Positions 28,699 through 39,240 of a stretch of DNA of 64,000 nt are shown in pieces (the stretch's first letter is position 1; each line of letters opens with the position of its first letter). The stretch is from Paenibacillaceae bacterium (GTDB lineage: Bacteria; Bacillota; Clostridia; Lachnospirales; Lachnospiraceae): the NCBI GenBank assembly GCA_015057705.1, contig SVDU01000005.1:124001-188000 (forward strand), given 5' to 3'. A program made the translations under genes and the position numbers. The notes under the pieces are model-generated. The model was given only the letters and a program-made list of their open reading frames with translations. It did no database searches and was not told the origin of the DNA.

Positions 28699-31071
28699 TC
28701 AGCTCCTTATAATAACCTTCTTCGCACCGGTACAAGCCTGTATATCCAGCTTTGTTGCTTTAAAAAATTCCCGGAATCTTTTGGGACTGGTAATAATCAG
28801 TTCAGGAATCTCATCTTTCATGGACAGCTGCTTTTCCGTTTTTTCCTTCCGAACCGTTCCGATCAGCTCCTTCACCTGTTCCCCAAATTCAAGATAAGTC
28901 TTATTAGCTTCTTTCCATTCCCAAAGAGTCTGGTGGATGGACATCATTTCTTCATGACTCCGATAAAAGTCCTGATAAATATAGTCTGTTATGAACGGGG
29001 TATAAACTGCATACAGCTTCAATATACCAAGCAGACTGTAATACAGCCCATATTGTCCTGAATATCGTTCTTTAACTCCATGCTTTTCCGGCTGATAAAG
29101 ACGTTCCTTTACAATTTCGATATAGTAATCACAGAAATCCCGCCAGAACAGATCATCAATTTCATGCCTTGCCTGACCAATTTCAAAATCGTCTAAAAGA
29201 TCTTTTGCAACACTGGTGGTTTCATTTACCCGTTCCAGCATCCACCGGTCAATAGGCAGCAGAGTCTCAGGATCAAATTCTTCCTTCTGTTTATAATCGT
29301 TCAGCTGCAAAACTACGAACTTCGCCGCATTATAAAGCTTCGTCAAAAATCTCCTGGAACCCTTCATTTCATCTTCACTGAAAAATGTATCTGTACCCAG
29401 TTTGTTGCTGGCTGCCCAATACCGGATTGCATCCGCAGAATAGGTTTCAATAAGTGCAAGAGGTGAATTAGATGCATTGTTTTTTGATTTACTAATCTTC
29501 TCCCCGGGCTTTGCCAGTACAAACCCGCTGATCATAATGTCCTTCCAGGGGATTTCACCAGTGTGATAAAGACTTTTTACAATGGTATAAAACGCCCATG
29601 TACGAATAATTTCATGAGCCTGATTTCTCATTCCCATGGGCAGAATCTCTTTGCTTCTGTCATAATCCTCGCCATATCCGGCATTGATAAAAGGGGTTAC
29701 GGAAGACGTTGCCCAGGTATCAAAAACCGCTTCCTCAGGGAGAAACTGTGTGCATCCGCAGCTGCATGCCTTTCCTGGCATTTCCTCCAGTGGATTTACA
29801 GGAAGCTGGTCTTCTTCCGCAAAAACAGGTTCTTTGCAATCCTTACAATACCAGACCGGAAATGGAACTCCGAAATACCTCTGTCTGGAAATGCACCAGT
29901 CCCATTTTAAATTCTCCACCCATATCTGATATCGCTTTTTCATATGAGCCGGATGCCAGCTGATCTCATCCGCTGCCTTTAAAAATCTGTCCTTTTCCGT
30001 CAATACATCAATATACCACTGGTTGGAAGGAATGATTTCCACTGCCTGACCGCACCGCTCATGAACAGCCACGCTGTGAGAAACTGCCTCCTGCTTTACA
30101 AGCAGATCCCTGCTTTTTAATTCTTCCACCATGGTCCTCCTGGCAAGAGTGACTTCCATTCCCCCGATATAAGGGACTTCCCCGCTTATGGTTCCGTCCG
30201 GCAATATAATTTTCTTATAAGGAAGATGATGGGTCTGGTACCAGGAAACATCTGTAGAGTCACCAAAGGTTGCACACATAACAGCGCCCGTACCTTTTTC
30301 CATGGATACCATCTCATCTGCCATAATTGGTATTTCAAAATCATACAGAGGAACTCTGGCCATTTTCCCGATAAATTTGTGATATCTTTCATCCTGGGGA
30401 TGAACAAAAACGCATACGCAGCCATACAGCAGTTCCGGTCTTGTGGTTGCGATCAGTAAATCTCCCAGAGAAGTTTTAAAATTCAGATAGTGAAAGCTGG
30501 ATTCCAATTCCAGAGTTTCAAGCTCTGCCTGTGCAATGGAAGTCTGGCACTGGGTGCACCACAAAACAGGTGACTCTTTCCTGTAGGCCTTATTCATCTT
30601 AACCAGATTAAGAAATGATCTCTGGGATATTTTCTGAGACAGCGAGGACACTGTCTGATAGCTTAAATCCCAGTCTACACTGAATCCCAGTTTTTGAAAC
30701 AAACCCCTAAAATCGGTTTCATATTTTTCAATAGTCTCCACACAAATATTCCGAAACTGGCTCCTTGTCAGCTGTCCCGCCCGGATCTTCTTATCCCGTT
30801 CCACCAGCCGTTCCGTTGGAAGACCGTTGTCATCAAATCCCAGGGGATAGAATACATCATACCCCTGCATGCGTTTAAACCTGGCTATTATTTCAGCCTG
30901 TGTATAGGAAAACACATGACCGATATGAAGTGTTCCGCTGACAGTAGGAGGCGGCGTGTCAATAGAATAAACCGGCCGTTCCTTTCCCTGTCCATACTTG
31001 TAAATTTGGTTTTCTTCCCAGAAATTTGTTAACTGTTTCTCTGATTTTTGAAAATCATACTTCTTATCCAT
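28699..31071 (-). CDS. valS: Valyl-tRNA synthetase, short archaeal-type form
   Basis: Charges tRNA-Val with valine. The 790-residue class I enzyme has PPPTVSGTLHIGH (HIGH) near residue 40, GFDDNGLPTE, zinc-binding pairs CTQC and CKDC/CSCGC, and EKISKSKNN (KMSKS) near 520. The motif PPPTVSG with HIGHVFSYTQ is the archaeal-type variant; bacterial ValRS has PPPNVTG and about 880 residues with a C-terminal coiled-coil arm, which is missing here. It is preceded by a T-box whose specifier is GUA (Val), confirming the identity and its control by uncharged tRNA-Val. Confidence 0.9.
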   Translation of the reverse strand: MDKKYDFQKSEKQLTNFWEENQIYKYGQGKERPVYSIDTPPPTVSGTLHIGHVFSYTQAEIIARFKRMQGYDVFYPLGFDDNGLPTERLVERDKKIRAGQLTRSQFRNICVETIEKYETDFRGLFQKLGFSVDWDLSYQTVSSLSQKISQRSFLNLVKMNKAYRKESPVLWCTQCQTSIAQAELETLELESSFHYLNFKTSLGDLLIATTRPELLYGCVCVFVHPQDERYHKFIGKMARVPLYDFEIPIMADEMVSMEKGTGAVMCATFGDSTDVSWYQTHHLPYKKIILPDGTISGEVPYIGGMEVTLARRTMVEELKSRDLLVKQEAVSHSVAVHERCGQAVEIIPSNQWYIDVLTEKDRFLKAADEISWHPAHMKKRYQIWVENLKWDWCISRQRYFGVPFPVWYCKDCKEPVFAEEDQLPVNPLEEMPGKACSCGCTQFLPEEAVFDTWATSSVTPFINAGYGEDYDRSKEILPMGMRNQAHEIIRTWAFYTIVKSLYHTGEIPWKDIMISGFVLAKPGEKISKSKNNASNSPLALIETYSADAIRYWAASNKLGTDTFFSEDEMKGSRRFLTKLYNAAKFVVLQLNDYKQKEEFDPETLLPIDRWMLERVNETTSVAKDLLDDFEIGQARHEIDDLFWRDFCDYYIEIVKERLYQPEKHGVKERYSGQYGLYYSLLGILKLYAVYTPFITDYIYQDFYRSHEEMMSIHQTLWEWKEANKTYLEFGEQVKELIGTVRKEKTEKQLSMKDEIPELIITSPKRFREFFKATKLDIQACTGAKKVIIRS

Positions 31072-31106: not shown

Positions 31107-31400
31107 ACAAAAAAATTCACCCCAAGCTATGCTTAGGGCGAATTAACGTGTCCGCGGTACCACCTAAATTCAGAAATAATTTTCTGCTCTCAATACAATA
31201 CGGGAAGATTAAAAACTTCTTCTGATATTGCTTCCCCTGATAACGGTGGGAATCTCCGTTGGAGTCTACTGAGATAAAATCTGTTCAATCCAAAGCTCAA
31301 AGGCTACTTCCATGCTTCCATCACGAAGATTTTCACCAGCCATCTTCTCTCTGTTCATCCGGAATCGCATGTACTCCTCCTCGTCAACGCTTTTGTCTGT
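31107..31400 (-). promoter_or_regulatory. T-box riboswitch, Val (GUA) specifier
   Basis: On the minus strand the leader has an AGAGAG...GGTGAAAATC stem I region, a specifier in GGAA-GUA-GCC at 31307-31305 followed by a purine, the T-box AGGTGGTACCGCGG (31165-31152), and a terminator AATTCGCCC.../...GGGTGAATT followed by seven T (31108-31144). Binding of uncharged tRNA-Val would form the antiterminator and allow valS expression. Confidence 0.92.
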
Positions 31401-36259: not shown

Positions 36260-37228
36260 TTACCATTCTCCCCTGCTCTTTTTATTACACTTCTTTTTTG
36301 CAACTGCCTGCTTCCGGCTTTCCTTCGCCGCCTGAAACTTGGATTCCTTTTGGATTTTCCAATAATTTTTCCACCTTTTTTCTGTCAATGTCCCCTCTTT
36401 CAGTGCCTGGGTAACTGCACATCCCGGTTCCCCGTTATGGGTGCAGTTACTAAATCTGCACTGTAATATTAAATCATTGATATCAGTAAAGCTGAAGTCT
36501 ATACCATCATCCACAATCCACATTCCCAGTTCCCGCATCCCCGGTGTATCAATGATCCTGGCTCCATTATCCATTACAAACAGCTGGCGGTGAGTCGTAG
36601 TATGTTGCCCTTTTGAATCATCTTCCCTGATTTCTCCAGTTTCCATAAGCTCTTTTCCCAGCAGATAATTGGTGAACGTGGATTTCCCCACTCCTGATGA
36701 GCCCAGGAATACAGTCGTCTTTTCAGGCACCAGATAATTTTCCAACTGTTCCATGCCTTCCCCTGTCACAGCACTAACCACGCAGACATCAACACCCAGT
36801 GCAATCTGATTTACCAGTTCCACTTTTTCCTGGATATCTTCTGCAATATCTGCTTTTGTAAGGACAATAACAGGCTGCCCCCCGCTTTGCCACGAAACGG
36901 TCAGATAACGCTCCAGCCGTTTTATATTAAAATCATAATTCAAAGACATTAAAATAAAAACATAATCAAAATTAGCTGCTACAATCTGCTCTCCCATTCC
37001 CACATCAGGATCTTTCCTGGAAAATGCAGTTTTTCGTTCCAGTGTCTTAATAATCAGACAGTCGCCCAGAGGATTATACTCTAACTCCACATTGTCACCA
37101 ACCGTGGGGAATTCTTCCTCGCAATGATCCGTAAAATATATTCCCGCCTTTAGCCTGGCATACAGATCTTCCCCATTTACTCTTACCTCATAACGTTCCC
37201 TGTGAACTGCCGTGATAAAACCAATCAT
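36260..37228 (-). CDS. rsgA: Ribosome small-subunit-dependent GTPase A
   Basis: Circularly permuted GTPase that matures and checks the 30S subunit. An N-terminal OB fold is followed by G4 (VLTKADIAED), G1 (LGSSGVGKSTFTNYL), G2/G3 (DTPGMRELG), then a zinc site CRFSNCTHNGEPGC and a basic C-terminal tail. I chose ATG 37228 (MIGFITAVHRERYEV); in-frame TTG codons at about 37240 and 37285 could extend it, the last overlapping the stop of a leader open frame. Upstream lies an attenuator-like leader with its own promoter at 37574-37602, unusual for rsgA. Confidence 0.85.
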   Translation of the reverse strand: MIGFITAVHRERYEVRVNGEDLYARLKAGIYFTDHCEEEFPTVGDNVELEYNPLGDCLIIKTLERKTAFSRKDPDVGMGEQIVAANFDYVFILMSLNYDFNIKRLERYLTVSWQSGGQPVIVLTKADIAEDIQEKVELVNQIALGVDVCVVSAVTGEGMEQLENYLVPEKTTVFLGSSGVGKSTFTNYLLGKELMETGEIREDDSKGQHTTTHRQLFVMDNGARIIDTPGMRELGMWIVDDGIDFSFTDINDLILQCRFSNCTHNGEPGCAVTQALKEGTLTEKRWKNYWKIQKESKFQAAKESRKQAVAKKKCNKKSRGEW

Positions 37229-37278
37229 TTTTTCTTTCAAAAACAACCTCTCTTCCTGTTTTCCGTCAGCAAACCAAT

Positions 37279-37440
37279 TTACCAACGATTAAAAAAGGGC
37301 ATAAAAATGCCGCGGTAATAGCCCTTATGAGCTGTCACTGCGGTTGGCTTTCCAAAAAAAGGCACAAAAAAAACACATCTTATGGTGTGTTTAACAGAGT
37401 TAAGCGATATATAAGAGTCTAAAAGCGGCATACAAAACAT
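37279..37440 (-). CDS. Putative leader open frame resembling tet(M)-type leader peptides
   Basis: ATG 37440 opens MFCMPLLDSYISLNSV and runs 53 codons through both terminator hairpins to a stop that overlaps an in-frame TTG of rsgA (TTGGTAA). The opening MxCMP resembles the start of tet(M)-type leader peptides as I remember them, and the stretch KHTIRC/ACACACCATAAGATGTGTTT matches their terminator position. Its ribosome site is weak (GGA). It may act as a leader peptide, or only its first codons may matter. Confidence 0.45.
   Translation of the reverse strand: MFCMPLLDSYISLNSVKHTIRCVFFVPFFGKPTAVTAHKGYYRGIFMPFFNRW
37291..37312 (-). terminator. Second leader terminator before rsgA
   Basis: On the minus strand GGCAT (37311-37307) pairs with ATGCC (37302-37298), followed by CTTTTTT. 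A competing AAGGGC/GCCCTT stem spans the same region, compatible with alternative folds. Confidence 0.55.
37366..37392 (-). terminator. First leader terminator before rsgA
   Basis: On the minus strand AAACACA (37392-37386) pairs with TGTGTTT (37377-37371) around an eight-base loop and is followed by eight T. It lies inside the leader open frame. Confidence 0.75.
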
Positions 37441-37468
37441 GTCTGTTATCCATATGCCCAATATTCAG

Positions 37469-37510
37469 TTATTCTTTCATTACCTCTTTCACAAATAATG
37501 CATTTGACAT
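37469..37510 (-). CDS. Putative 13-residue leader peptide
   Basis: ATG 37510 behind AAAGGAG (eight bases) gives MSNALFVKEVMKE and a stop. It is the first start codon in the transcript from the promoter at 37574-37602 and precedes the tet(M)-like leader frame by about 30 bases. The strong ribosome site supports translation; the role as a stalling peptide is inferred. Confidence 0.5.
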   Translation of the reverse strand: MSNALFVKEVMKE

Positions 37511-37573
37511 ATCACATTCTCCTTTCAAGACCACTGATGGGTTATTTTGGTAATAACACTTCCAATTACACAT

Positions 37574-37602
37574 AAGATAACACATTTTATTGCCATCGTC
37601 AA
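37574..37602 (-). promoter_or_regulatory. Promoter of the rsgA leader
   Basis: TTGACG (37602-37597) and TATCTT (37579-37574) on the minus strand, separated by 17 bases. The transcript would have a leader of about 340 bases before rsgA. Confidence 0.65.
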
Positions 37603-37615
37603 TCATTACTTTTAT

Positions 37616-37642
37616 ATCTCCCACCAGAAACTGGCGGGAGAT
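37616..37642 (-). terminator. Hairpin after tyrS
   Basis: ATCTCCCACCAG (37616-37626 region) pairs with CTGGCGGGAGAT (37631-37642) with one mismatch or wobble and a short loop, five bases past the tyrS stop. There is no T run after it on the minus strand, so termination may be partial. Confidence 0.5.
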
Positions 37643-37646
37643 TACA

Positions 37647-38858
37647 TTATTTATTGATTTTTATAAATCTTTTTTTGCCGATCCTCATGACATCGCCATT
37701 AATCAGAACACTGTTTATTTCGTCCTCATCTATTTTTTCACCATTGATCTGAATTCCGCCTTGTCTGATGAGGCGGATAAACTCACTTCTGCTTTTTATA
37801 TATCCCAGTCCAATTAGTCCGGGTATGCTGTCATTTACCGTATCTTTCTCCAGGTCCAGAAGCAATGTGGGAATATCATTGGGAATTGTTTTCTTGCTAA
37901 ATGCCATTTCATAGTAAGTTATTGCGCTTTGTACTTCTTGTGCATTGTGGTATAAGCCTGTAATAATTTTTGCTAATTGAAACTTAATATCCCGGGGATT
38001 GACTCCCCTTTTCAACTCAGCTTTCACCCTGTCAATTTCATCAGGGTGTTCATCGGTTGTCAGCTCGTAATACTTAATGATAAGATCATCCGGCACTTCC
38101 ATCACCTTTTTAAACATCACTTCTGCCGGCTCACTCACTCCTATATAATTACCCAGGCTTTTACTCATTTTCTCTATGCCATCAAGTCCTTCAAGAATTG
38201 GCATAAATAAAGCGATTTGCTGGTCAGTTCCCATTGACTTTTGAAGCGTTCGTCCCATCAAAATGTTAAAGGTCTGATCTGTCCCCCCTAATTCAATGTC
38301 TGCCTTTATCTCTACAGAATCGTAAGCCTGCATCAACGGGTAAAAAAATTCATGGATTCCAATGGGAACACCATTCTTATAACGGTTCTGGAAATCATCC
38401 CGTTCCAGCATTCTGGCAACCGTTGACGTTGCAGCCAGTTTTATTACATCTTCAAAATTCAACTTTGAAAGCCACTCACTGTTGAATCTTACCATTGTTT
38501 TTTCTTTGTCCAGTATTTTAAATATCTGTTGGCAGTAAGTCAGTGCATTTTCCTTTACTTTTTCATCGGTCAGTGCCACTCTTCCTTTCGATTTTCCAGT
38601 GGGATCCCCGATCCTGCCTGTAAAGTCCCCAATTATAATAACTGCCTGATGACCAAGCTCCTGCATCTGTCTGATCTTTCTTAAAACAACAGCATGCCCC
38701 AGATGAATATCCGGTGCGGAAGGATCAAGACCTAATTTAATGGTCAGCGGTGTTTCCTGTTTATAGGATTGTTCCAGTCTGGCAAGTAGCTCCTCCTCAT
38801 TTACACACTGGTAAACCCCTTTGCAGATAATACGCATTTGCTCTTTTGGTGTTAACAT
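37647..38858 (-). CDS. tyrS: Tyrosyl-tRNA synthetase
   Basis: Charges tRNA-Tyr. The 403-residue class I enzyme has DIHLGHAVVLRKI (HIGH), the tyrosine-binding KADIELGGTDQTFNILMGR, KMSKSLGNYI (KMSKS) near residue 235 and a C-terminal S4 RNA-binding domain (FIRLIRQGGIQINGEKI). This is the TyrZ-like, longer-spaced form. It is preceded by a T-box with a UAC (Tyr) specifier. Confidence 0.95.
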   Translation of the reverse strand: MLTPKEQMRIICKGVYQCVNEEELLARLEQSYKQETPLTIKLGLDPSAPDIHLGHAVVLRKIRQMQELGHQAVIIIGDFTGRIGDPTGKSKGRVALTDEKVKENALTYCQQIFKILDKEKTMVRFNSEWLSKLNFEDVIKLAATSTVARMLERDDFQNRYKNGVPIGIHEFFYPLMQAYDSVEIKADIELGGTDQTFNILMGRTLQKSMGTDQQIALFMPILEGLDGIEKMSKSLGNYIGVSEPAEVMFKKVMEVPDDLIIKYYELTTDEHPDEIDRVKAELKRGVNPRDIKFQLAKIITGLYHNAQEVQSAITYYEMAFSKKTIPNDIPTLLLDLEKDTVNDSIPGLIGLGYIKSRSEFIRLIRQGGIQINGEKIDEDEINSVLINGDVMRIGKKRFIKINK

Positions 38859-38943: not shown

Positions 38944-39240
38944 TAAAAAAACTCCCGTCCTTCTGTTATCAAAAGGACGAGAGTGACTCTCGTGTTACCA
39001 CCTTAAGTTTATAGACAACTCACGTTGTCTACCTCATCGGGTACGGCCGTGGCGATACCCTTGCACCTGATTACGGTGTGCTCTCCGTCGCAGCCTACTT
39101 CTTAAATCGGTTCGGTGCGCAGCTCCAAGATGTATTCACACTTTCTATCCATGAGCCTCTCATCAACCGGCATCTTTCTGTTTGGAATTGTAAATGCTAC
39201 TCTTTCTTTTCATAGCCTTTTCTTATACTCCGAATTATAA
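38944..39240 (-). promoter_or_regulatory. T-box riboswitch, Tyr (UAC) specifier
   Basis: On the minus strand GUGAA-UAC-AUC presents the specifier UAC at 39134-39132, followed by a purine; the T-box is AAGGTGGTAACACGAG (39004-38989) and the terminator is CTCTCGTCCTT/AAGGACGGGAG followed by a run of T (38945-38985). It controls tyrS by uncharged tRNA-Tyr. Confidence 0.92.

Follow-up and report, generated by a model that had tools for sequence, protein, structure and literature searches.

In the 64,000-nucleotide window (the whole stretch of DNA analysed here), the minus strand between tyrS and rsgA carries a leader in which we confirm, and find conserved, a promoter, a short upstream open reading frame (uORF) preceded by a strong ribosome site, and a pair of terminators. 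Judged by its sequence, the gene behind this leader is a divergent accessory second RsgA copy, hereafter rsgA2, and not the housekeeping rsgA. We consider it likely that the leader is a uORF-dependent transcription attenuator controlling rsgA2 and the GNAT gene that follows, in which a ribosome on the uORF would set free a downstream sequence, element 2, and thereby permit read-through. The features discussed below are:

37602-37574, minus strand: promoter, −35 TTGACG (37602-37597) and −10 TATCTT (37579-37574), 17-nt spacing, TG ahead of the −10
37526-37519, minus strand: Shine-Dalgarno sequence (SD) of the uORF, GAAAGGAG (element 1), partner of element 2 in the wider family
37510-37469, minus strand: uORF MSNALFVKEVMKE, 13 codons, Val at codon −4, stop TAA at 37471-37469
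37458-37427, minus strand: hairpin P1, GGCAUAUGGA (37458-37449) with UUUGUAUGCC (37436-37427)
37419-37404, minus strand: element 2 equivalent GACTCTTATATATCGC, diverged from the ACCTTTCGTGAATAC of the wider family
37392-37366, minus strand: terminator T1, hairpin 37392-37371 followed by a T run
37343-37291, minus strand: terminator T2, CCGCAG...GCGG plus GGCATTTTTATGCC, followed by a T run
37240-36260, minus strand: rsgA2, second RsgA copy, TTG start (most likely)
36259-35273, minus strand: GNAT acetyltransferase gene directly behind rsgA2, profile-tested with Pfam

Conservation of the leader and identity of rsgA2

The initial annotation had described a consensus-like promoter, a 13-codon frame with a strong ribosome site and two intrinsic terminators, and our comparison bears out all three. 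Across 10 aligned Lacrimispora leaders, neither promoter hexamer shows more than a single change (alignment read by eye), and the uORF was found in 10 of 10 aligned genomes, with 0-4 base changes relative to that of the window. Matches to the promoter pattern occurred at chance level in 2.6 kb (8 versus 7.1 expected), and a terminator scan found two terminator-like sites versus 1.6 expected, with the inner hairpin 37311-37298 alone reported for T2; second terminators resembling T2 are present in related leaders (by eye). The 341-nt leader folds with z = −1.97, three of 100 shuffles folding equally well. The leader, taken as 236 nt (37526-37291), shows 0.4-7.7% difference from nine related records, and rsgA2 differs from the same records by 2-27% at third and by 0-10% at first and second codon positions; constraint on the leader is thus roughly equal to that on the protein. 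By DNA search it was detected in 10 of the 25 genomes of the genus, the genome of the window counted, and in an eleventh, G013, a leader precedes an rsgA2 that is more distant (L042). A DNA match in G190 was dropped as a terminator-like stretch beside an unrelated gene.

A promoter-leader-terminator arrangement conserved in relatives, which had been suggested as a check, was indeed found: uORF and hairpins are kept in the genus and the same layout stands upstream of distant rsgA2 genes. But could the leader be the relic of a lost resistance gene, as the initial annotation had also proposed? Related leaders do precede Tet-like genes in other genomes. However, the leader is conserved across the genus with an intact rsgA2, and it stands before intact rsgA2 in many genera, other families and orders included, so that we give this reading hardly any credence.

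The downstream gene had been named simply rsgA. Its protein does contain the RsgA domain (PF03193, 177.2 bits, cut-off 30; TIGR00157, 166.9 bits, cut-off 100), but the same genome holds a higher-scoring RsgA on contig C32 (242.6 bits versus 167.5 for the window copy), and the identity between the window protein and the genome's own canonical RsgA is 32%. In a tree of 78 rows (22 of 30 canonical copies, 55 of 65 second copies, plus L053), one branch with a support of 98/97 splits the 55 second from the 22 canonical copies, and the window gene lies on the side opposite to the canonical ones. RsgA2 of the window retains the GTPase residues and the zinc-site residues, and shares the GTPase domain and the zinc site with the RsgA (YjeQ/EngC) family. 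A protein search at E ≤ 1e-60 found relatives in 55 of the 397 genomes from the family and in 95 of the 392 from the order. We prefer the TTG at 37240 as start codon, since 10 of 10 aligned leaders retain it, which does not hold for the ATG at 37228. Some genomes of the genus, namely G015 (locus L053), G006, G008 and G014, also encode a third RsgA-like protein, highly divergent and about 430-450 aa in length (TIGR00157, 92-98 bits).

The GNAT gene probably shares a transcript with rsgA2. Behind rsgA2 in 20 loci inspected by eye, GNATs, an APH-like kinase and RNHCP proteins (one of them profile-tested with Pfam) recur, and otherwise unrelated frames or none follow. Proteins with an RNHCP domain come immediately after rsgA2 in L185, L095 and L103, and in L185 the RNHCP part is fused to RsgA2 (by eye). 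In many distant loci a further short frame with a ribosome site lies just before the rsgA2 start, after T2 (by eye), among them L043 (about 1760-1860), L042, L057, L064 and L084.

A leader family and its target genes

Two covariance models were employed to search for related leaders. R1 was built from 13 leaders, none of them from Lacrimispora, and still found the leader of the window as its only match at E ≤ 0.001 in that genome (E = 2.6e-4, 45.7 bits); within the window, its best match is 37486-37366 (E = 3.7e-6). Among the order genomes, 26 of 246 were matched at 29 places. R2, built from 50 leader matches, found 10 places in the family, spread over 10 of the 250 genomes searched, and 9 in the class, in 8 of 245 genomes, the genome of the window being among them both times.

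At E ≤ 0.01, R2 matched 35 of 56 rsgA2 loci, these 56 being the best-scoring from the family and order protein searches and some of them having also been used in building R2. The matches in L056 and L071 are weak or partial, and that in L070 stands before a kinase gene preceding rsgA2. The other 21 of the 56 loci gave no match at this threshold, and some of them show the uORF-terminator layout by eye (e.g. L072). No match at E ≤ 0.01 was obtained in 30 canonical rsgA loci or in 15 tet loci. Rfam models gave nothing reaching the gathering threshold over window positions 36900-38000 (all six weak matches were below it), and in 19 related loci and the whole window they gave T-boxes only, none over the leader. 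A DNA search with leader L061 found no match among plasmids.

What does this leader family stand in front of? The three genome searches yielded 46 distinct places, whose targets were read from downstream frames and contig places. The target is rsgA2 at 32 of these and MutS2 at seven, of which one was profile-tested (TIGR01069, 470.5 bits, cut-off 400) and six were assigned by eye. Two places (L154, L161) precede Tet-like GTPases whose best family, NF012153, scores below its cut-off, and at one (L179/L070) an APH-like kinase followed by rsgA2 is the target. The remainder comprise one GNAT, one ABC ATPase, one GNAT-domain protein (Pfam) and one place running off its contig; for L182 we claim a GNAT domain alone, because the N-terminal half has no Pfam match. 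Some of the targets (ABC ATPase, GNATs) are not known translation genes, which weighs against the attenuator reading proposed below. The reading of the region as a uORF/terminator leader of tet(M)-like layout is upheld by these related leaders before rsgA2 and before the two Tet-like GTPases. In the titles or passages of open-licence full texts, we found no link of RsgA to a leader or attenuator in clostridia, and the terms rsgA, engC, mutS2 and tetracycline are all absent from the text of PMC8632094.

Leader architecture and the proposed switch

For the analysis of the architecture we assembled 58 leaders, namely the 50 matches from which R2 was built, minus L085 (same place as L145) and L169 (its gene side is cut by the contig end), to which L177 and L179-L187 were added; the remaining loci from the R2 genome searches were places already included or a near-copy of L059. 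Leaving out the near-copies L037, L039 and L040 gave 55 leaders, with the model match of L159 and L165 extended upstream by hand. Their common order is SD, short uORF, hairpin, anti-SD element and terminator. A uORF with SD, as predicted from sequence, is conserved over the 55 leaders and is 8-14 codons long in 54 of them. Val occupies codon −4 in 51 of 55 uORFs; the choice of uORF favoured a Val near the end, and without that preference 52 of 55 starts were the same and the Val count was still 51. Codon −3 is Ile or Val in 41 of 55.

Such regularity could reflect peptide-specific arrest, in which the uORF end V-[IV]-x-x-stop stalls the ribosome at a fixed place, with or without a small molecule. 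The stall rather than SD occupancy would then set the RNA fold, and one drug or metabolite could be sensed. The recurrence of Val at −4 and of Ile or Val at −3, written with the synonymous codons GTG, GTA and GTT, speaks for such a stall. However, codon −5 ends in G (base −13 from the stop) in 53 of 55 leaders, although Met, Glu, Leu, Lys or Ser may be encoded there, so that the constraint lies partly on the RNA, and the SD and element 2 change together. We therefore regard peptide arrest as unlikely, yet as the most serious of the rival explanations. The uORF bases −13 to −7 from the stop (e.g. 37485-37478 in the window) read GGTGATT or GGTAATT, which we take to resemble the 3' part of a full Shine-Dalgarno sequence (the complement of the 16S 3' end), and their spacing from the stop could hold a terminating ribosome.

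A P1-like stem of at least five pairs is present in 53 of 55 leaders (a raw count). RNAalifold, applied to a 31-row alignment, returned one hairpin only, near the 3' end (T1), and SD:element 2 and P1 were thus tested as a named structure on 17 rows. In these 17 leaders, 12 pairs of SD:element 2, P1 and T1 are changed on both sides, compared to 6.7 ± 1.7 in shuffled controls (12 being reached in 2 of 500; relatedness ignored), and every measure drops when the partners are slid against each other. The two-sided changes fall mostly in T1 (7 of 7 pairs), with 3 of 7 in P1 and 2 of 8 in SD:element 2. Within leaders, SD and element 2 are more complementary than in any of 1000 partner swaps (n = 48, no element 2 having been found in the other seven of the 55; relatedness ignored). 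The pairing energy of −9.46, versus −8.47 in swaps, beats 300 of 300 (44 of the 55 leaders, element 2 of L054 and the hairpin of L154 set by hand; relatedness ignored). In the MutS2 leaders L157 and L170, both SD and element 2 are replaced and 12 pairs are retained. Comparison of sequences thus establishes the uORF, hairpin P1 and terminator T1, as well as the correspondence between SD and element 2 and the association with translation-related genes.

For the pairing of element 2 with T1, the energy is −6.42 versus −4.45 in letter shuffles, but its margin over swaps (−6.12) is just some two standard deviations, and individual swaps equal it (relatedness ignored in both comparisons). AGG occurs at the T1 loop in 31 leaders versus 8.8 expected (54 of the 55 used; relatedness ignored). 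That this pairing is weakly supported would suit a constitutive device for weak expression, in which T1 and T2 merely lower rsgA2 transcription, the uORF is a passive insulator and ribosome stress regulates nothing. We judge such a device to be quite improbable, as the register of uORF, P1 and element 2 is conserved across orders and the leader is reused before MutS2 and Tet-like genes.

Another rival explanation invokes the 30S subunit itself. The transcript 12-mer TATTACCGCGGC (37321-37310, minus strand) would be antisense to the 530 loop of 16S rRNA, and RsgA is a 30S factor, so that the leader might pair with 16S rRNA over these twelve bases and sense free or immature 30S in an autoregulatory manner. 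But the 12-mer, even with two mismatches allowed, is absent upstream of 12 other loci and sits in the T2 stem of the window. We dropped this reading as a coincidence of the T2 stem; its chance of being right is minute.

On these grounds we infer termination, read-through, the sensed signal, the switch itself and the role of RsgA2, and we propose the following uORF-dependent attenuation mechanism. Transcription would start at the leader's own promoter and as a rule stop at one of the terminators, T1 or T2. For most members of the family, element 2 (ACCTTTCGTGAATAC) would pair with the uORF Shine-Dalgarno sequence (ACGAAAGGAG), and this SD:element 2 pairing would act as an anti-antiterminator, so that T1 forms. 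A slowed or drug-held ribosome on the SD or uORF would free element 2, which may then invade T1 by pairing along its 5' arm and loop; polymerase would thereupon enter rsgA2, and RsgA2 would act on stressed 30S subunits. The switch is less clear in the genus of the window, since element 2 has diverged there. Its predicted energies in the window leader are weak for both pairings (−4.7 kcal/mol for SD:element 2, −4.4 for element 2:T1), and the prediction is rather that it masks the region around the uORF start: in the computed fold, AUAUAUCGC (37412-37404) pairs with GUGAUAUGU (37515-37507).

Relation to known systems and possible role

Leaders of the tet(M)/tet(W) type have the same order of an SD-bearing short uORF, a hairpin after its stop, a uORF-complementary element and terminators before the gene (pairing by eye), and the 5' side and loop of the last tet(M)-type terminator resemble the uORF side (by eye, tet loci). 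A comparison with tet leaders, also suggested by the initial annotation, therefore held for the terminator layout, with T1 and T2 of the window lying between uORF and gene, but not for the uORF: an SD-bearing MRQGIL[KN] is found in 15 of 15 tet loci (MRQGILK, with MRQGILN in L125) and is absent from the window, whose uORF reads MSNALFVKEVMKE. The pairing elements differ as well, as the tet element covers uORF codons whereas that of the rsgA2 family covers the SD.

In the initial annotation the resemblance had been seen elsewhere, in a second frame opening MFCMPLL (ATG 37440) that had been likened to a tet(M) leader opening MLCMP. A tet(M) record does have an annotated leader frame, containing MLCIPMVMHKNP, which runs through the last terminator, but the SD-bearing uORF MRQGILK lies upstream of it, just as the SD-bearing uORF takes the upstream position in rsgA2 leaders. 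The MFCMPLL frame of the window does not correspond to such an MLC.P frame through the last terminator. It lacks an SD; L033 and L037 carry frame shifts in it, and L039, L038 and L040 have Tyr, Asp and Asn codons, respectively, in place of that for Cys (by eye). Its stop (37281-37279) was said to overlap an in-frame TTG and in fact lies two bases beyond TTG 37285-37283. We rejected this frame as a leader and trace the MFCMP impression to TATGCC, the 3' arm of P1. The likeness probably concerns a frame that is not the working uORF in either case.

Over the 45 control loci, the best R2 match is the tet leader of L128 in matching register (E = 0.16), which is at most a hint of distant kinship between the rsgA2 and tet leaders, and R2 on two tet(M) records gave nothing at the leader. 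The two kinds of leader likely share a working principle; they are not the same sequence family. A passage of a review lists tetM as controlled by a transcription attenuator (PMC5418344). For vmlR of B. subtilis, passages of PMC9226507 present a demonstrated scheme with a uORF within an anti-antiterminator hairpin, a competing antiterminator and an intrinsic terminator. The layout of our leader fits this scheme and may represent tet(M)- or vmlR-like logic with new targets. The likeness to vmlR is one of layout; the vmlR uORF has three codons in a hairpin bulge and serves an ABC-F protein. At ermK, msr(D) and others, antitermination likewise follows when a ribosome stalls within a leader frame, as summarised in the review cited above (PMC5418344), but these serve resistance genes and the leaders described here mainly precede a second RsgA and MutS2.

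But which signal would the leader respond to? Most likely it turns rsgA2 on when ribosomes stall, for instance by antibiotics, and we infer an induction of rsgA2 by ribosome-targeting drugs. The functional proposal of the initial annotation thereby receives partial support. The link to drugs is an indirect one, drawn from the ribosome-acting targets and from two reports seen as passages. Loss of MutS2 renders B. subtilis hypersensitive to chloramphenicol, tetracycline and erythromycin (PMC10897456), and in Streptomyces an RsgA paralogue is tetracycline- and WblC-dependent, beside TetM, GNATs and second tRNA synthetases (PMC7157823). The passages on this WblC/WhiB7 response resemble our findings in that tetracycline raises an RsgA paralogue, TetM, GNATs, ABC proteins and second tRNA synthetases and in that a uORF attenuator lies at wblC itself (PMC7157823). 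In contrast, one protein activator there serves many promoters, whereas here each operon would have a separate cis-acting RNA.

One leader family without an Rfam entry thus joins a second RsgA, the collision factor MutS2 and Tet-like GTPases, while ribosome-stall-sensing leaders are known mostly from single resistance genes. We tentatively put forward, as a possibility in which we have less than even confidence, that the family marks an undescribed clostridial, RNA-controlled translation-stress regulon, in which SD-sensing uORF attenuators govern RsgA2, MutS2, Tet-like GTPases, GNAT and APH-like enzymes and RNHCP proteins, with RsgA2 as a new ribosome-protection GTPase. If so, RsgA2 would clear or bypass drugs at the 30S decoding centre, MutS2, in collision rescue, would be part of the same ribosome-defence kit, and the regulon would be a cis-RNA counterpart of the actinobacterial WblC/WhiB7 response. 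Since the leader family is shared, the purpose of accessory RsgA copies becomes directly testable; rsgA2 is a candidate for an intrinsic response to ribosome-targeting antibiotics in clostridia, and the leader family a search handle for further genes of the same response.

The window also contains second copies of two tRNA synthetase genes, tyrS (37647-38858, minus strand; higher-scoring copy on contig C27) and valS (28699-31071, minus strand; higher-scoring copy on contig C11), with T-boxes upstream at 38970-39222 (minus strand) for tyrS and at 31131-31396 (minus strand) for valS. Together with rsgA2, these second copies resemble the second translation genes of the WblC regulon.
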